64,000 nucleotides of DNA from Acidimicrobiia bacterium (lineage in GTDB: Bacteria > Actinomycetota > Acidimicrobiia > Spongiisociales > UBA11373). The DNA is taken from positions 1,391,628 through 1,455,627 of the forward strand of contig CP129495.1 of the NCBI GenBank assembly GCA_030584185.1, given 5' to 3'. Made by a program: the position numbers and the translations under genes. Below are positions 9,904 through 20,757 of the stretch, in pieces. Position 1 is the stretch's first letter; each line of letters opens with the position of its first letter. The notes below the pieces were generated by a model. That model saw only the letters and a program-made list of their open reading frames with translations, was not told the DNA's origin and searched no databases.

Positions 9904-10024
9904 GCCCGGTTCGACTCCGCGGGGGATGTGGTGGTTCCCGGAATCATTCCCGCAGAGCGGCCGCGAAGCGGGCCCCGACCTGACCGACGGGAAGGCATCC
10001 ACCTCCCGGACGGTTGCAGCCTCC

Positions 10025-11257
10025 ATGACCAGACCGTCCTTCGCCCTGGCTGCCCTTGCGCTGTTCGCCTCCGCCTGCACCGGCACGTCCGGCGAGGATC
10101 CCACCGTCACCACCAGTGAGGCGGCCACCACCATCCCGCAAGGCCCGGTGCTCGAGGGGCTTCCGCTCGGCTCGCTTCCCGAGGGCCCTTCCGCCCTGAG
10201 CGATCGCAACGCCCCCGAGTTCCCGCCGCCACTGGTCGATGTGTCGGACATCCGCTCCGGGGGCCCGCCTCCCGACGGGATTCCGCCCATCGACGATCCG
10301 CAGTTCATCTCGGTGAGCGAGGCTGACGCCTGGCTCGCCGACACCGAGGCGGTGGTGGTGATCGAGATCGACGGCGACGCCCGCGCCTACCCGGCACAGA
10401 TACTGATCTGGCACGAGATCGTCAACGACGTGGTCGGCGGCGTGCCGGTGGCGGTGACCTACTGCCCGCTGTGCAACAGCGCCGTCGCCTATGGGTGGAC
10501 CATCAACGGGGTGGTGACCACCTTCGGGACCTCGGGCAGCCTGTACAGCTCGGCCCTTGTCATGTACGACCGGGCAACCGAGAGCCTGTGGACCCATTAC
10601 GACGGTACCGCCGTGGTGGGCATGCTCGCCGGGACCGTCCTGAAGGCGATCCCCTCGCCCCTGCTCTCCTGGGCCGAATTCAAGGCCACCTTCCCCGACG
10701 GCCTGGTGCTCGACCGTGACGCCACCGGGTTCACCCGCGACTACGGTCGCAACCCCTACGACGGGTACGACGACGTCGACAACCAGCCCTTCCTCTTCGA
10801 CGGGACCGTGGACGACAGGGCGGCGGCGATGCGCCGTGTGGTGGGCGTCACCCTGGGCGAGGAATCGGTCGCCTGGGCTCTCGACGCGCTCGTCGCCGAC
10901 TCGGCCAGCGCCACGAGTGCCGAAGTGGGCGGGGTCCCGATCGTGATCTTCTGGAAGGCGGGACAGTCCAGTGCCCTCGACGACGTCGCCATCTCGACGG
11001 GGCAGGATGTGGGTTCGGTCGGAGTGTTCGTCCGGGTGGTGGAGCGGACCGTCATGGAGTTCGAGGTGGGTGAGGACGGCGAATTCGTGGACGCCTCCAC
11101 CGGGACGTCCTGGGACATCACCGGGCGCGCCGTCGCCGGCGCGCTCGAAGGCTCCCGCCTGGAGAGGGTCGTGCACCTGGACACCTTCTGGTTCGCCTGG
11201 TCCACCTACCGGCCGGGCACCCGGTTGGTAACGGATCGAACCCCGATCAGCGACTGA
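10025..11257 (+). CDS. DUF3179 domain lipoprotein
   Basis: A 410-residue protein with a lipoprotein signal (FASAC around residue 17). From about residue 80 the DUF3179 domain begins: ARAYPAQILIWHEIVNDVVG, followed by the family's cysteine motif VTYCPLCNSAVAY and by FGTSGSLYSSALVMYDR. DUF3179 proteins are exported and uncharacterised; the CPLC pair may bind metal or be redox active. The gene is convergent with the DoxX gene and overlaps its end by 11 nt. Confidence 0.88.
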   Translation: MTRPSFALAALALFASACTGTSGEDPTVTTSEAATTIPQGPVLEGLPLGSLPEGPSALSDRNAPEFPPPLVDVSDIRSGGPPPDGIPPIDDPQFISVSEADAWLADTEAVVVIEIDGDARAYPAQILIWHEIVNDVVGGVPVAVTYCPLCNSAVAYGWTINGVVTTFGTSGSLYSSALVMYDRATESLWTHYDGTAVVGMLAGTVLKAIPSPLLSWAEFKATFPDGLVLDRDATGFTRDYGRNPYDGYDDVDNQPFLFDGTVDDRAAAMRRVVGVTLGEESVAWALDALVADSASATSAEVGGVPIVIFWKAGQSSALDDVAISTGQDVGSVGVFVRVVERTVMEFEVGEDGEFVDASTGTSWDITGRAVAGALEGSRLERVVHLDTFWFAWSTYRPGTRLVTDRTPISD

Positions 11258-11812: not shown

Positions 11813-13447
11813 TCAGGCGGCGCAGCAGGAGAGGGTGGCGACGTCCTTGCCGAACCCCTGGGCGGCGAGCTTGAGGGCCTCGGCAATGGTGAGGTAGGGG
11901 TGGAAGGTGGTGGCGATCTCGTCGATCGTCGCCCGGTACCTGAGCGCCATCACCGCCGCCTGGATGACATCGCCGGCGTCGTTTGCGATCACGTGGGCAC
12001 CGAGCAGGTGGCCCGACGCCTCGTCGGCGACCAGCTTCACCAGGCCTTCGGTGTCCCCGTCGACGATCGCCCGCGGCACCACCGACATCGGCAGGATCGA
12101 GGTGATCACCCGCTTCCCCCCCTCCCGGGCCTGGGCCTCGGTGAGCCCCACCGATGCGACCTGCGGGGAGGTGAAGGTGACCCGGGGCATGGTGGTGAGG
12201 TCGATCTTGCGGGTGGTGCCCCGCAGGGCGTTCTCGGCGGCGACGTTCCCCGCCAGGGCGGCCACGTAGACGAACTGGGGGAGGTCGGTGACGTCACCTG
12301 CGGCGTAGATCCGTTCGTTGGTGGTGCGCAGGTCGGCGTCGACCACCACCTGGCCCCGCTGGTCGGTCTCCACCCCGGCGGCCTCGAGCCCGAGCCCGGC
12401 GGTGCGGGCCCGGCGCCCGGTGGCCATCAGGATACGGTCGGCCTCCAGGCGGACCGGGCCCTTCGGCGAAGACAGGTCCAGCCACGACCGCGACCCAGCC
12501 CTTCCGGCGGCGACGATCCGGGCGCCGATGTGGACGGTGGCGCCCTGCGCCTCGAGCCGCCGGGCGATCACCTCGGAGATCTCCGGCTCCTCGAAGGGGG
12601 CCACCCGGTCGAGGGCCTCGACGAAGGTGACCCGCGACCCGAGGTGGGTGAACAGCTGGCCCAGTTCGAGCCCGATGGCGTTGGCGCCGACCACGATCAG
12701 GCTGGCCGGGACCTCGTCGAGCTCCAGGGCCGTGGTGGAGGTGAGGTGGTCGACGGTGTCGAGCCCCTCGATGGGTGGAATCCACGGTGCGGCGCCGGTG
12801 GCGATCAGGAAGCGGAACCCCTTCACCAGGTGCCCGTCCACGGCGATGGTGTCGCCGTCGACGAAGGCGGCGGTCCCGCGGATCAGGTCGATCCCGTGAT
12901 GGGGGAGCAGGTCCTGGTACTTGTCGGTTCGCATCTTCGCCACCAGGGCGTCCTTCTGCGCCACCATGGCCCGGAGGTCGACGCCCCCTGCCATGGTCTC
13001 GGCCCCGGCGAACGGCCCGTGCCCGGCCTTCCAGTAGGCCTCGGCGGCGCGCAGCATCGCCTTCGAGGGGACGCATCCCACGTTGACGCAGGTGCCGCCG
13101 ATCTCGCTGCTCTCGACGATCGCCACGGTGGCTCCCAGGTCGCGTGCCTTGATGGCGGCGGCGAAGGAGGCCGACCCGGAGCCGATGATCACCAGGTCGT
13201 AGCCGGCGCCGGTGGCGTCCGGGGCGGGGTCGGGCGTCGGGGCGATGACCAGGCCGTACCCGACGGCGCTCACCTCCCTGGTGGCGGTCGACATCTCGAA
13301 GGCGGCGGTGGGGATGCCGGTGGCGGTTCCCCGCCGCCAGTCGACGGCGACGTCGCCGAGGCCGGCCCGGCCGAGGGCGTCGCCCACGGTGGTCTCGCAC
13401 CCGTCACAGTGCATCCCCTCTACCTGGAGCTCGATCCGCTCGTTCAT
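11813..13447 (-). CDS. merA: Mercuric reductase with N-terminal HMA domain
   Basis: A 544-residue flavoprotein that should reduce Hg(II) to Hg(0) with NADPH. It has an N-terminal heavy-metal-associated domain (VEGMHCDGCETTV, residues 8-20). Next come an FAD-binding GSGSASFAAAIKA, the redox disulfide GGTCVNVGCVPSK (about 132), an NADPH-binding VVGANAIGLELGQ and a FAD-contact YAAGDVTDLPQFVYVAA. The C-terminus ends in the vicinal cysteines SCCAA that deliver Hg(II) to the active site. The ATG overlaps the merR stop (ATGA), so regulator and reductase are cotranscribed. Confidence 0.95.
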   Translation of the reverse strand: MNERIELQVEGMHCDGCETTVGDALGRAGLGDVAVDWRRGTATGIPTAAFEMSTATREVSAVGYGLVIAPTPDPAPDATGAGYDLVIIGSGSASFAAAIKARDLGATVAIVESSEIGGTCVNVGCVPSKAMLRAAEAYWKAGHGPFAGAETMAGGVDLRAMVAQKDALVAKMRTDKYQDLLPHHGIDLIRGTAAFVDGDTIAVDGHLVKGFRFLIATGAAPWIPPIEGLDTVDHLTSTTALELDEVPASLIVVGANAIGLELGQLFTHLGSRVTFVEALDRVAPFEEPEISEVIARRLEAQGATVHIGARIVAAGRAGSRSWLDLSSPKGPVRLEADRILMATGRRARTAGLGLEAAGVETDQRGQVVVDADLRTTNERIYAAGDVTDLPQFVYVAALAGNVAAENALRGTTRKIDLTTMPRVTFTSPQVASVGLTEAQAREGGKRVITSILPMSVVPRAIVDGDTEGLVKLVADEASGHLLGAHVIANDAGDVIQAAVMALRYRATIDEIATTFHPYLTIAEALKLAAQGFGKDVATLSCCAA

Positions 13448-13875
13448 CTCGGCGCCTTCCGTTTCGTGACCGGTGGGTTCTCGCCTTCGACGATGTGGCA
13501 CACGCAGGAGCCGGAGGGCCAGTCGTCGGCGAGGCGGTCGGCTTGCTCCTGCAGCCGGAGCAGCTCCTGGCGCAGCGCCTGGAGCTCGCCGATGCGGGTG
13601 TCGATCATCTCCGCCTCCCGGGCCATCGCATGGCGCACGACGGCGCATGGCGCCTCGCCCCGGACCCGAAGGGCGACGATCTCCTTGACGTCGTCGAGGG
13701 GGACGCCCAGCCGCCGTGCCCCCCGCACCAGGCGGAGGAGGGCGACGTCGTCGGCGTCGTACCGGCGGTACCCCGCTTCGGTGCGCGCAGGCCGCGGCAG
13801 GACTCCCTGCTTCTCGTAGAAGCGGATGGCGGATGGCTCCAGGCCGGCCGCAGCGGCGGCTTCACCGATCTTCAC
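13444..13875 (-). CDS. merR: MerR-family mercury-responsive regulator
   Basis: A 143-residue MerR regulator with an N-terminal winged helix (MKIGEAAAAAGLEPSAIRFY, then GYRRYDADDVALLRLV) and a long dimerisation helix around 80-118. Candidate metal ligands are C77 (EAPCAVV) and a C-terminal SCVCH cluster near 122-126, comparable in layout to the three cysteines of MerR. It is autoregulated through the operator just upstream and is coupled to merA by an ATGA overlap. Confidence 0.9.
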   Translation of the reverse strand: MKIGEAAAAAGLEPSAIRFYEKQGVLPRPARTEAGYRRYDADDVALLRLVRGARRLGVPLDDVKEIVALRVRGEAPCAVVRHAMAREAEMIDTRIGELQALRQELLRLQEQADRLADDWPSGSCVCHIVEGENPPVTKRKAPR

Positions 13876-14093: not shown

Positions 14094-14498
14094 TCAGGGT
14101 GTGTCGAGTTGGTCGACGTGTTCGGCCGTAGGTGATGCGGCGGCGAGGCCGGAGTCGACCGTGACGATCGGCGCCTCGATCCGATCGGCGAGTTCGACGT
14201 ACAGGGCGTCGACGAGGCGGAGGTTGTGCCTCCGCTGCCAGGCGCCCGTCAGCAGCGGGGCGAGGGGGTGCCGCTCGAAGGGGGCGGCGGCGAGGCGTTC
14301 GATCCGTTCGGCCGCGTCGGCGGCCTCCAGGTGGCCGGATCGCTCCAGCCGGCCGAGCGCGGAGAGGACCTCGGCGTCGAAGTGGGCGGGTACGTGCAGC
14401 TCGTGTCCGCGAAGTCGAGCGTGGATGGCCTGCGCCCGCCCGCTTCCGAGGAGGATTTCGATCATCGCCGAGGCGTCGACGATGAGCCGCTCAGGCAC
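14094..14498 (-). CDS. vapC: PIN-domain toxin VapC
   Basis: A 134-residue PIN-domain ribonuclease of VapC type. The acidic residues are visible as IVDASAMIEILLG (residues 5-17, first Asp), the FDAEVLSAL region (about 42), LVDALYVELA (about 98) and IVTVDSGLA (about 113). It starts 8 nt inside the antitoxin gene, the usual vapB-vapC order, and would cleave tRNA or rRNA when freed from VapB. Confidence 0.9.
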   Translation of the reverse strand: MPERLIVDASAMIEILLGSGRAQAIHARLRGHELHVPAHFDAEVLSALGRLERSGHLEAADAAERIERLAAAPFERHPLAPLLTGAWQRRHNLRLVDALYVELADRIEAPIVTVDSGLAAASPTAEHVDQLDTP

Positions 14499-14718
14499 GG
14501 CCCGCCAACTCCTCCTTGGCTGCGGACAAGGCGACGGCGACTGCGTCCCGATCGACGTCGAGTGGGGTGAGACCGGCGACGTCGTCGAGCCAGTCGTCGA
14601 GGCGACGAGCGGCGAGCGTCGAGCGGATCGCCTCCTGGGTGAGGCCGGAGAGGTTCAGGCCCGCCGCCTTCGCCTCAGCGGCGAGCTCGTCGGGCAGGTA
14701 GACGTTGACCCGCGACAT
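14491..14718 (-). CDS. vapB: Ribbon-helix-helix antitoxin VapB
   Basis: A 75-residue antitoxin. The N-terminus MSRVNVYLPDELAAEAKAAG is a ribbon-helix-helix DNA-binding segment, and the acidic C-terminal tail should wrap the toxin. The ATG at 14718 is preferred over one at 14724 because a TATGTT -10 element ends 6 nt upstream, consistent with a leaderless mRNA. It overlaps vapC by 8 nt. Confidence 0.85.
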   Translation of the reverse strand: MSRVNVYLPDELAAEAKAAGLNLSGLTQEAIRSTLAARRLDDWLDDVAGLTPLDVDRDAVAVALSAAKEELAGRA

Positions 14719-14812
14719 GCGCATAACATACACACCCAACCCGGTATGGGGAAGCCCTTCGCTCTTGCGGCCGGCGGTTCCCCACCCCAGGCCGTCGACG
14801 GGTGCCGTCCCT

Positions 14813-16403: not shown

Positions 16404-16880
16404 GTGTCGATGTCGACCGACCTGCTGCAGCAGACCTACACCACCATCCTCGACCACATGGTGACCCACCGTCGTGCCCCCCACTACACCGAGCTGGCCG
16501 AGGTGCTGGGGGTGCCGATAGAGGAGGCCCGCATCCTGCAGCGGGAGGCGGCGGAGGCGGCCCCGGCGGCCACCTGCTGGATGAGCCACGACACCGACTA
16601 CGTGGAGGCGTGGGGCCCGTTCTCCAACGTGCCCACCCACGTGCGCATCTCCATCGACGGGGACCACGGCTGGTTCGGGTTGTGAGGGATGGAGTCGCTG
16701 GCGGTGCGCTGGCTGGTCCCGGGCAAGGAGGTGGTGGCCGAGATGCCCTGCCTCGACTGCGGCGAGCAGATCCGGGTGGTGATGGGCGACGGCGGGGTGC
16801 GGGTAGACCCGGAGACGGTGGTGGGGTATCAGATCTCGCCGTTCGTGCAGTGGCGGGAGGGTTCCGGGGCGTTCAACTGA
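16404..16880 (+). CDS. MerB-like (alkylmercury lyase family) protein with two in-frame TGA codons, putative selenoprotein, N-terminal and middle parts
   Basis: One reading frame runs from GTG 16404 (or ATG 16410) through TGA at 16683-16685 and TGA at 16878-16880, and on into the next entry. The N-terminal 90 residues resemble the MerB helical domain, including HRRAPHYTELAEVLGVPIEE. WFGL-(TGA)-GMESL aligns with YAWC-ALDTL of MerB, placing TGA at catalytic Cys96. GSGAFN-(TGA)-SRMNLF aligns with the QSFC-CHVHFF region, placing the second TGA at Cys159. CLDCGEQIRVV between them matches the MerB Cys117 region. The best reading is selenocysteine at both active-site positions; two nonsense mutations are the alternative. 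merA lies 3 kb away. Confidence 0.7.
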
Positions 16881-16886
16881 AGCCGC

Positions 16887-17960
16887 ATGAACCTCTTCCG
16901 GTCGGAAGAGCACGTCAGGAGATGGGAGCTGTACTCGCAGGCCAGCGAGGACTACATACTGCCGGTTGCCACCTGGGCGGAGATCTTCAGCGGCCCGCTG
17001 TTCACCCAACGCCTGGCACCCGATTACCTGGAGCGGGGCGAGGAGTACGTGGAGGCGTACCACGACGCCCTGCGTGAAGCGGGGAAGGCCAGCCCCTACT
17101 GGCAGTACCCGCTGATCGCGGCGATGGACGAGGTGCGGCTCTCCCGGTATCAGGTGGTCGGCGCCTACACGCGGTACGAGACCCGGGTGCTCAACGACCT
17201 GAAGGACGCCCGGGTGCGGATCGTCGCCGGGTTGGAGGAGCGCTCCGGGCGGCGGGAGAACCATCTGGTGTGGGCGGCGCCGGGGAGCGGCAAGACCTTC
17301 TTCGTGGAGCAGGTCGCCGCCGGGATGGGGGGTGCGGTCCGCTACGTGGAGCTGAACCTGGCTCGCCTGGACGAGGAGGGATTCCGGGCCGGGCTGGAGG
17401 GGCTGGCCGGGTTGGAGCCGCCGGTGCTGTGCCTGATCGACGAGGCCGACGCCCACGCCGGCGAGCCCTGGCCGTACGAGGTGCTGATGCCGCACCTGGA
17501 TGTGAACCTTGGGGGTGGCCATGTGGCGTTCGTGCTCGCCGGGTCTTCGGGGTTCAGCCTGGAGGGGATGAAGCAGCGGATCGGGGGGCGTCCCAAGGGG
17601 AGCGACGTGCTGAGCCGGATCCCGGTGGTCAACCAGTTCGTGATCCCGGCGATGTCGTTCGGGGATCGGGTGCTGATCACGCTGCGCCAGTTCGTGGAGG
17701 CGGGGAGGCGCCTGGGTCATGAGATCGGCCAGGTGGAGAAGCTGGGGCTGTACTACGTGGCGGTGAACGGGCGGCTGGCCAACGCCAGGCAGCTGCAGGA
17801 GTTCGCGGCTCGCAGCGTGGAGCGGATCCCGAGGGGGGACGACCGCATCAAGTACGACCACCTCTTCGTGCCCGGCGACCCGGAGAACAAGCGGTTCTGG
17901 ATGGAGGTCGGCGGCGTAGCCCGTGATCTGGTGAACTCCTTCGTGACCATCGAGGGGTGA
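16887..17960 (+). CDS. MerB-like C-terminal part fused to an AAA-type ATPase domain
   Basis: The frame is continuous with the MerB-like entry; if both TGAs are decoded, the whole is about 516-518 residues. From ATG 16887, residues 1-75 (MNLFRSEEHVRRW, then a segment ending ASPYWQYP) resemble the C-terminus of alkylmercury lyase family proteins. An ATPase follows: Walker A APGSGKTFF (about 132), Walker B PVLCLIDEADAH (about 182), and a sensor-like AFVLAGSSGFSLEGMKQRIG. An ATG at 17124 could start the ATPase alone, but no stop separates the parts. The last 40 codons are duplicated at 20537-20670. Confidence 0.7.
   Translation: MNLFRSEEHVRRWELYSQASEDYILPVATWAEIFSGPLFTQRLAPDYLERGEEYVEAYHDALREAGKASPYWQYPLIAAMDEVRLSRYQVVGAYTRYETRVLNDLKDARVRIVAGLEERSGRRENHLVWAAPGSGKTFFVEQVAAGMGGAVRYVELNLARLDEEGFRAGLEGLAGLEPPVLCLIDEADAHAGEPWPYEVLMPHLDVNLGGGHVAFVLAGSSGFSLEGMKQRIGGRPKGSDVLSRIPVVNQFVIPAMSFGDRVLITLRQFVEAGRRLGHEIGQVEKLGLYYVAVNGRLANARQLQEFAARSVERIPRGDDRIKYDHLFVPGDPENKRFWMEVGGVARDLVNSFVTIEG
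16893..16910 (+). promoter_or_regulatory. Candidate bacterial SECIS hairpin
   Basis: CTCTTCC (16893-16899) and GGAAGAG (16904-16910) form a perfect 7-bp stem closed by a GGTC loop. The stem begins 12 nt after the TGA at 16878-16880 and the loop about 20 nt after it. Spacing and a GGU-type apical loop agree with known bacterial SECIS elements recognised by SelB. It lies inside coding sequence, as bacterial SECIS elements do. Confidence 0.65.
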
Positions 17961-17967
17961 GGGGGGG
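17834..17967. repeat. Direct repeat A, left copy (3' end of ATPase gene)
   Basis: These 134 bp cover the last 42 codons of the ATPase gene plus 7 nt past its stop. They recur at 20537-20670 in the same orientation with four mismatches, three of them synonymous. The 2.57 kb between the copies is a gene cassette. Confidence 0.95.
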
Positions 17968-18146
17968 TGCGGCGGAAGCGGATGCGACACCCTTTTCACG
18001 TGTTCGCGGTTGGCCGTCCGCCGTGGTCCGGCCGACTCGCCAGGGGTGCTCGCTCGGGTGTGACGTACGCTGGGGTCACCTGACGTCGTGGCAGACCGGC
18101 GCCGTTCGTTCCGAAGTGCTGAGAGCACGAGTGTGGGAGGTCGAGC

Positions 18147-18686
18147 ATGAGGATCACGATTCTCGGGTGGGGCTCTCTTGTTTGGAATCCAGGCAGTTTG
18201 CCCATAGACGGACCCTGGCAGGGGACCGGCCCGGTGCTTCCCCTCGAGTTCTCCAGGGTTTCCCGCGATGGCAGGCTCACACTCGTGATCGACCGGGAGC
18301 ATGGTGATCCATGCCAGACCTACTCCGTCCTGAGCCAGCAGGTCCATCTTGGCGACGCGATCGGGGACCTTTGCCGGCGAGAGGAGACCGAGGAGTCGCG
18401 GATCGGCTTTGTCGACCTGGAGAGTGGCGACTGCCGCGGACGGGATGACCTTGCAGTGAAGGCCATCAAGGCGTGGGCCGAGGCCGGCGACATCGACGGG
18501 GTCGTCTGGACCGACCTCGAACCGAACTTCGAGATGAAGAGCGGTGCAGCCTTCAGCGTCACTTCGGCTATTCGTTACATCGACGGGCTCCCCGCGACGA
18601 ACAGGGCGAAGGCCATCGAGTACATCGCTAGGGCACCGGCGAATGTATCCACACCGTTCCGGCGCGCGTGGGCGATCGATGCCTAG
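18147..18686 (+). CDS. Uncharacterised protein with gamma-glutamylcyclotransferase-like start
   Basis: A 179-residue soluble protein beginning RITILGWGSLVWNPG, which resembles the substrate loop (YGSL) at the N-terminus of the gamma-glutamylcyclotransferase/AIG2 fold. The rest is not recognised, so the assignment is tentative. GGGAGG lies 6 nt before the ATG. It is the first gene of the cassette bounded by direct repeat A. Confidence 0.6.
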   Translation: MRITILGWGSLVWNPGSLPIDGPWQGTGPVLPLEFSRVSRDGRLTLVIDREHGDPCQTYSVLSQQVHLGDAIGDLCRREETEESRIGFVDLESGDCRGRDDLAVKAIKAWAEAGDIDGVVWTDLEPNFEMKSGAAFSVTSAIRYIDGLPATNRAKAIEYIARAPANVSTPFRRAWAIDA

Positions 18687-18764: not shown

Positions 18765-19694
18765 TCACATGTTCCGGAGCAAGCTAGAGAATGCCTCCCT
18801 CTCAGCGGCAAGGTCGACGTGGCGGTTGCCAAGGGTATTGAAGAACTCAGATTGTTGCCATGTGATCAGACTTCGGTACCGGGCTGAGAAAACGCCGAGC
18901 TCTGAGATCTCGTATCTATTGGTGAAATCCATGAGGGTGTACCCCGCGAGCTGCAGGACCGTCTGCTTGTCGAGGGTTGGCCTATGCATCCCGTCCTTTC
19001 CCTTGCGGCCAAGCGATGTCTTCACCTCAAGGAGTAACCCTGCTGCGATCAGATCGGCATCGCCGGACAGGAAGTGTGACCCATCGAAAGTAGGCCCAAG
19101 ATCCCATCGCCCTTTCCGTCGTGCCAGGGTAGGGAGTAGCACCGATTCGGTCACCGCCCGAAGTTCGTCCAACTGCGTGATTGCGGCGTCAGGCGCCAAG
19201 CCGAGTAGCGTCTCGCCTCGGACCCCGCGAGAACTGGGATAGCGTAGGGGCGATCCGGGCTTTACTCCTACCCGGACCACCTCGGTGAAAAGGGCGAGCA
19301 CCCAGCATCCCCTTGCAAGAACATCGTGGTCCAGCGACGATCCTCGCACTGGCCCCTGGAAGCTGGCAGTGCCACCCCTACCGAAACCCAGTGACGCCGT
19401 AAGCTCGCTGAATGCACCCCGTAATCCAGGAAGTCGAGAGAGCATCGCGCCCTGGACGGCGAGGCGTAGGTCAGGTTCAGGGTGTACCAGGAAGCGGACC
19501 ATCCAGTCGAATGCTCCGCCGAGTGTTCCGAGGTTGAGGTCACCATCACACTTTCGGACAATCAGGGGTCCGACTTGATCCCTATAGGCTTGTTGAAGGT
19601 CGCCCACATTCGGAAAGCGATGATCCATGAAGTGACGTACCGGAGAGTTCAGATCCTTCAATGCCGACGTAAGAGATGGCCAGGTATTCCTCAT
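18765..19694 (-). CDS. Uncharacterised protein with PD-(D/E)XK-like motif
   Basis: A 309-residue protein. The segment SGDADLIAAGLLLEVKTSLG (about residues 210-230) has the D-x(n)-E-x-K arrangement of PD-(D/E)XK nucleases. The N-terminal half is helical and not recognised. ATG 19694 is chosen; a TTG at 19706 is possible. It lies in the repeat-A cassette. A nuclease role is inferred from the motif alone. Confidence 0.6.
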   Translation of the reverse strand: MRNTWPSLTSALKDLNSPVRHFMDHRFPNVGDLQQAYRDQVGPLIVRKCDGDLNLGTLGGAFDWMVRFLVHPEPDLRLAVQGAMLSRLPGLRGAFSELTASLGFGRGGTASFQGPVRGSSLDHDVLARGCWVLALFTEVVRVGVKPGSPLRYPSSRGVRGETLLGLAPDAAITQLDELRAVTESVLLPTLARRKGRWDLGPTFDGSHFLSGDADLIAAGLLLEVKTSLGRKGKDGMHRPTLDKQTVLQLAGYTLMDFTNRYEISELGVFSARYRSLITWQQSEFFNTLGNRHVDLAAEREAFSSLLRNM

Positions 19695-19867
19695 GCGAAT
19701 ACCCAAACGGCCGGTTTCCGTGCCGTGGTCGTTCGACCAGGGAGAAAAGTCAAGGCTCGTGGTGTTGCGGAGGCGTGGCGTCTACTGGAGTCCTCGTGAC
19801 GCAGGAGTAACACACAGCTACTGGACAGCGTCCTCACTTACGTCTCTCGTCATGACGTAGAAGAGTT

Positions 19868-20497: not shown

Positions 20498-20536
20498 GCA
20501 GTCAGTGTAGAAGAGCGGCTGGGAGTCGATCGTCTT

Positions 20537-20670
20537 GGGGGACGACCGGATCAAGTACGACCACCTCTTCGTGCCCGGCGACCCGGAGAACAAGCGGTTC
20601 TGGATGGAGGTCGGCGGCGTCGCCCGTGACCTGGCGAACTCCTTCGTGACCATCGAGGGGTGAGGGGGGG
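20537..20670. repeat. Direct repeat A, right copy
   Basis: This second copy of the ATPase gene 3' end has no upstream coding part and is therefore a fragment. Its differences from the left copy are mostly synonymous, which suggests it came from another functional allele and not from local decay. Confidence 0.95.
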
Positions 20671-20757
20671 CCCGGGTCACGGCCAAGGGTGTCGGGCTCA
20701 ACCCGCGTCCGCTGGGCTGCACTTCGTCTATCACCCCACATTGGGGCGATCACAGGT

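Follow-up and report, generated by a model that had tools for sequence, protein, structure and literature searches.

A predicted double-selenocysteine MerB-like domain fused to interchangeable AAA+ ATPase or nucleotidyl cyclase domains, a candidate sensor of soft metals

Background

In the classical organomercurial lyase MerB (PF03243; structures 3f2g and 5c17), release of cysteine from mercury has been computed to be the rate-determining step, which requires thiol exchange (PMC4525700). A single MerB-like selenoprotein, SaoL (NF040728), is listed in a 2026 selenoproteome review, which gives it one selenocysteine (Sec) in a CU motif (PMC13188914). Class III nucleotidyl cyclases of Actinobacteria combine diverse input domains with the cyclase output domain (PMC2447327).

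Here we describe a MerB-related gene from an Acidimicrobiia bacterium (contig CP129495.1), located in a stretch of 64,000 nucleotides that is hereinafter called the window. The product shares with MerB the fold, the pocket positions 96 and 159, Cys117 and the HTH-like N-terminal helices, but differs in that both catalytic positions are predicted to be Sec, Asp99 is replaced by Glu, an AAA+ domain is fused to the MerB domain and the scores fall far below the NCBIfam cut-offs for MerB. It resembles SaoL in being a MerB-related predicted selenoprotein; however, SaoL has a single Sec, located in a CU motif of adjacent residues (PMC13188914), whereas the window protein has two putative Sec residues 65 residues apart along with the AAA+ domain, and scores 19.9 bits against the SaoL model, with the cut-off at 140. 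The cyclase-bearing relatives described below share the input-output organization of the actinobacterial cyclases but have the double-Sec MerB domain as the input. None of the NCBIfam models (June 2026) recognizes the single-Sec or double-Sec proteins that were tested, and full-text searches of the open-access literature found no double-Sec MerB, MerB-cyclase or MerB-AAA fusion.

The gene and its MerB-like pocket

The gene, its elements and a remnant copy of its 3' end are all on the plus strand:

16410..17960, +, complete gene, two in-frame UGA codons within a MerB-fold domain that is fused to an AAA+ ATPase (dN/dS about 0.1 in all segments)
16620..16979, +, MerB domain, PF03243 (Pfam 2.1e-13, 50.8 bits, cut-off 27; PDB profile matches to MerB2 5c17 and MerB 3f2g)
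16683..16685, +, UGA 1, predicted Sec at the MerB Cys96 position (alignment to 5c17/3f2g; TGA in 16 loci, Cys in the rest)
16697..16713, +, SECIS-like hairpin 1, GCUGGC-GGUGC-GCUGGC (loop 17 nt past UGA 1, 6 bp, -16.4)
16878..16880, +, UGA 2, predicted Sec at the MerB Cys159 position (alignment to 5c17/3f2g; TGA in about 50 loci)
16893..16910, +, SECIS-like hairpin 2, CUCUUCC-GGUC-GGAAGAG (loop 19 nt past UGA 2, 7 bp, -12.5)
17124..17957, +, AAA+ ATPase domain (PF00004, 22.9 bits, cut-off 21.2; Walker A AAPGSGKT, Walker B LCLIDEAD, arginine-finger-like LSRIP)
20515..20675, +, remnant second copy of the 3' end of the gene (161 bp, 90%)

The two internal TGA codons are the sole interruptions of the frame 16404-17960, which ends with a TGA stop codon (17958-17960), and each of them is flanked on both sides by MerB-like sequence. 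This agrees with the preliminary description, in which a single frame with MerB-like sequence was seen to run through two TGAs; the end of the gene, however, had been placed at 17123, whereas the frame continues free of stops to 17960 as the AAA+ domain. The preferred start is the ATG at 16410, with GGGGGG upstream of it, and the alternative is the GTG at 16404; with TGA read as Sec, translation from the ATG yields a protein of about 517 residues, with no further stop in 517 codons. The remnant 3' copy forms a direct repeat with 17812-17972 and is located 2.7 kb downstream, with unclassified ORFs (18147-18686 and 18765-19706) in between.

Comparison with the PDB, using as the query a profile of four homologues, identifies MerB2 (5c17, 2.2e-8) and MerB (3f2g, a C160S mutant). 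The profile alignment places the first TGA at Cys96, as initially proposed, and the second TGA, for which Cys159 and Cys160 had both been considered, at Cys159 and not at Cys160. The position of Asp99, three residues past UGA 1, is taken by Glu in all proteins of the double-Sec type, whereas the equivalent of Cys117 is invariant. At the positions of Cys96, Asp99 and Cys159 of MerB, the window protein has predicted Sec, Glu and predicted Sec. For this protein, no NCBIfam MerB model is reported at E values up to 1, and two related double-Sec proteins (L003 and L058) score 26-31 bits, against the MerB cut-offs of 193-200. In a Foldseek search with an AlphaFold model, the top matches are MerB structures, several of these with bound Hg, followed by AAA+ motors; the model itself is weak (pLDDT 64 from 4 sequences, poorest near the second Sec) and, for this reason, the pocket geometry is left out of the argument. 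A classical all-Cys MerB is encoded elsewhere in the same genome.

Predicted decoding of the two UGA codons

Examination of the genome for the Sec machinery identifies selB (336.6 bits including the neighbour in its frame, cut-off 242), the adjoining selA (395.6 bits, cut-off 268), selD (385.4 bits, cut-off 125), which itself contains an in-frame TGA in GAGUACK, and a tRNA-Sec with the anticodon TCA. A WhiB-like gene also adjoins selB, pointing to an actinobacterial host. Among the carriers of the gene family that were tested, selA is absent only from two MAGs with completeness of 68-73%; across the phylum, selA is present in 236 of 396 genomes, so that the association is significant but modest (Fisher p=0.0065). 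Genome-wide reassignment of UGA to Cys or Trp is ruled out: the stop codon of the gene is itself TGA, as is that of the related locus L003, the stop codon of L004 is TAA, and the tRNA-Sec is present.

Homologues were searched for in the phylum of the window (396 genomes), in Chloroflexota (400) and in the order of the window (138). TGA is found at both sites in 16 loci from 13 genomes of two phyla (Actinomycetota-like and Chloroflexota), about 35 further loci combine a Cys codon at site 1 with TGA at site 2, and other homologues, including classical MerB, carry Cys at both sites. Hence the stops are not scattered among the relatives. When the window gene is compared with its two closest relatives, dN/dS is 0.09-0.19 in each of four segments, i.e., before UGA 1, between the UGAs, after UGA 2 and in the AAA domain, and therefore the downstream parts appear to be translated in frame with the upstream part.

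The stem of hairpin 1, GCURGC-nGUnn-GCYGGC, is retained in 14 of the 14 double-UGA loci tested, with one pair being A-U, G-U or G-C, and lies outside the MFE fold in some homologues. After UGA 2, a stem with a GGUC loop is formed in all loci by the sequence (N)C TTC CGG TCG GAR or a close variant of it. The Arg and Ser of this block are encoded by CGG and TCG in 50 of 50 loci, whereas in these genes as a whole CGG accounts for 26% of Arg codons and TCG for 35% of Ser codons, and neighbouring Arg codons are variable, which implies that the RNA, and not the protein alone, is conserved. The corresponding protein motif FRSEEH is absent from all-Cys homologues and is probably a by-product of the conservation of hairpin 2. 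The stability at both hairpin sites exceeds that of synonymous shuffles, which is not the case for Cys-bearing homologues (p=0.002 and 0.009; site 1 p=0.002), and for the site-2 pattern of UGA with hairpin, 0 matches are expected in shuffled windows. The 7-bp hairpin with a GGTC loop, noticed at the outset 12 nt past the second TGA as SECIS-like, is confirmed at 16893-16910, and both hairpins fit the bSECIS model quoted in PMC13188914.

Taken as a whole, the comparative evidence makes it nearly certain that both UGAs encode Sec, with SelB and tRNA-Sec presumably reading each codon by means of its own coding-region SECIS hairpin. The original proposal that both catalytic thiols are selenols is strongly supported by the presence of the Sec machinery, the TGAs at the same sites in relatives and Cys in homologues. 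Two in-frame stops within one gene and a remnant 3' copy close by are what a pseudogene or a sequencing error with two nonsense mutations could produce, but this explanation deserves hardly any credence and is refuted by the comparative data: the identical two TGAs recur across the 16 loci, dN/dS is low downstream of both, there is no other stop, and the SECIS-like elements are conserved. A subtler alternative is that the UGAs mostly serve as true stops, so that a short product would be made without selenium, and the complete fusion only when Sec is available. Termination indeed competes with recoding of UGA to Sec (PMC4513850), and the ATG at 16887 (Met-Asn-Leu-Phe), immediately past UGA 2, could re-initiate translation of the AAA+ part; nevertheless, such a selenium-controlled switch appears improbable given that this Met lies inside a MerB motif and is also present in stand-alone forms, so that it need not be a start, and that a truncated MerB would miss one or both metal ligands.

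Phylogeny of the Sec-bearing proteins

In trees built with both Sec columns masked, all Sec-bearing proteins form one clade (99/97) separate from classical MerB, and the double-Sec proteins cluster with a few single-Sec proteins. A single gain of the second Sec, followed by a few losses, is the probable history. All-Cys subclades inside the Sec-bearing clade (L068, L070, L071, L085, L043 and L074) likely represent Sec-to-Cys reversions.

The combination of Cys at site 1 with predicted Sec at site 2 characterizes a large stand-alone MerB-like family (L032-L042, L061-L067, L069, L073, L075, L084, L086, L138 and others) that is hosted by Actinomycetota-like and Chloroflexota genomes and is apparently uncatalogued. 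These proteins (about 35 loci; no NCBIfam model) share Sec-159 and hairpin 2 with the window protein, but differ in having Cys at site 1 (NCxWDA) and no output domain in the examined members, and form a sister clade.

Output domains fused to the double-Sec domain

The AAA+ domain (PF00004) is fused to the double-Sec MerB domain in six loci, i.e., the window protein and five others, and the Walker A, Walker B and arginine-finger-like motifs are retained in all six fusions. Among 370 Chloroflexota genomes, this AAA domain is found only within the MerB fusion. In four relatives from the order of the window (L130, L131, L132 and L137, the last one cut at site 1), the domain found at the same place is instead a nucleotidyl cyclase of class III (PF00211, 1e-11 to 1e-14). 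The fused proteins (n=10) form one clade (100/98), in which the cyclase group (100/99) is nested within the AAA group; thus, the output domain has been swapped while the double-Sec domain has been kept. Class III cyclases usually have a catalytic Asn; in these fusions, the corresponding position is occupied by His (VHIGAR), so that the predicted cyclase activity is uncertain. An output domain is missing from at least six of the double-Sec relatives, and therefore a stand-alone function, such as catalysis, must also exist.

Genomic neighbourhood

Two genes on the opposite strand of the window are relevant to mercury:

11813..13648, -, MerA, mercury(II) reductase (TIGR02053, 541 bits, cut-off 454)
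13444..13875, -, MerR-family regulator (passes no MerR-specific cut-off)

The preliminary description had reported a merR-merA operon upstream of the gene; the MerA is genuine, but the genes are on the opposite strand, the regulator falls below the MerR-specific cut-offs, and neither gene recurs near the other loci of the family that were checked. Membership in a mer operon is accordingly unsupported, with merA and merR absent at the loci checked, and no conserved neighbour, operon or regulator of any kind is found at the loci examined. The putative ligand is therefore assigned by homology. Between merA and the selenoprotein gene, a PIN-domain (VapBC-like) toxin-antitoxin pair is located at 14094-14739, and farther away, at 9926-11257, the window encodes a DUF3179 protein in its Cys form, a family with known Sec members.

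Proposed function

Homology to MerB suggests that the selenocysteines at the Cys96 and Cys159 positions, in a pocket that retains Cys117 and has Glu substituted for Asp99, form a diselenolate site for Hg(II) or an organomercurial. Hg(II) or R-Hg would then be coordinated by both selenolates along with a carboxylate. Binding or cleavage of the organometal could then alter the pocket and switch the ATPase or cyclase output. Judging from the sequences, a soft metal or an organomercurial is the probable ligand, and Hg(II) or an organomercurial a likely one. As an explanation of the whole, a double-Sec MerB pocket that acts as the input (sensor) domain and drives the ATPase or the cyclase is the best available and is favoured with some confidence. 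The more specific formulation, a family of one-component sensors whose pocket would recognize organomercury (or some other soft metal) and control an interchangeable AAA+ or cAMP/cGMP-type cyclase output, has about an even chance of being correct.

A role as a sensor or switch seems somewhat preferable to that of a pure detoxifying enzyme, mainly because the output domain was exchanged without loss of the double-Sec domain, which is how sensor modules evolve. Compared with the cysteines of MerB, selenolates should bind Hg tighter still; such binding would suit a sensor or else demand energy-driven release, a purpose that the AAA+ motor could serve. The latter possibility is the essence of the main competing interpretation, under which the protein is a double-selenolate organomercurial lyase, the tight Se-Hg product is removed by the AAA+ motor, and the cyclase fusions are added alarm outputs. 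The retained MerB pocket, in which position 99 is still acidic and Cys117 is preserved, the stand-alone double-Sec forms, the MerA in the same genome and the slow cysteine-Hg release in classical MerB (PMC4525700), the very step that selenolates should worsen, are all compatible with such a lyase, but the exchange of AAA+ for cyclase, the lack of a conserved merA or other mer partner and the presence of a second, all-Cys classical MerB in the genome make it a rather unlikely candidate.

Slightly less likely still is that the architecture and the Sec decoding are as described but the ligand is not mercury, being instead another organometal, a soft metal or a reactive electrophile. The replacement of Asp99 by Glu and the non-conserved mercury gene context would fit such a ligand, as would the assignment of SaoL relatives to a broader organometallic system (PMC13188914); conversely, mercury lyases are the nearest solved structures by both sequence and fold, and both metal-holding positions and Cys117 are retained.

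In a MerB-family protein with Sec in place of both catalytic Cys residues, the contribution of selenium to Hg-C chemistry and to Hg binding would become directly testable. That an ATPase output could be exchanged for a cyclase suggests that a mercury-detoxifying fold was recruited as a signalling input and, if the sensor hypothesis holds, the family would represent a metal receptor that relies on selenium and descends from a detoxification enzyme. Annotation of UGA as a stop fragments these genes, so that a family spanning two phyla is easily overlooked, and environmental surveys of merB may have missed it.

Relatives in phage-like contexts

The double-Sec MerB-AAA gene of one genome (L088 of G221) is surrounded by phage-like genes, namely those for a terminase small subunit-like protein, an HK97 capsid-like protein and a tyrosine recombinase. 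Horizontal transfer of the gene is likely, given that it crosses phyla and sits amid phage-like genes in this genome; no relatives were found in plasmid or phage records. An N-truncated single-Sec MerB remnant is present on the viral contig IMGVR_UViG_3300025289_000094 (L108, 14611-14641), at the edge of the fetched stretch. This contig resembles tailed phages, with large-terminase-like, portal-like and capsid-like ORFs, and the remnant possibly marks an insertion site.
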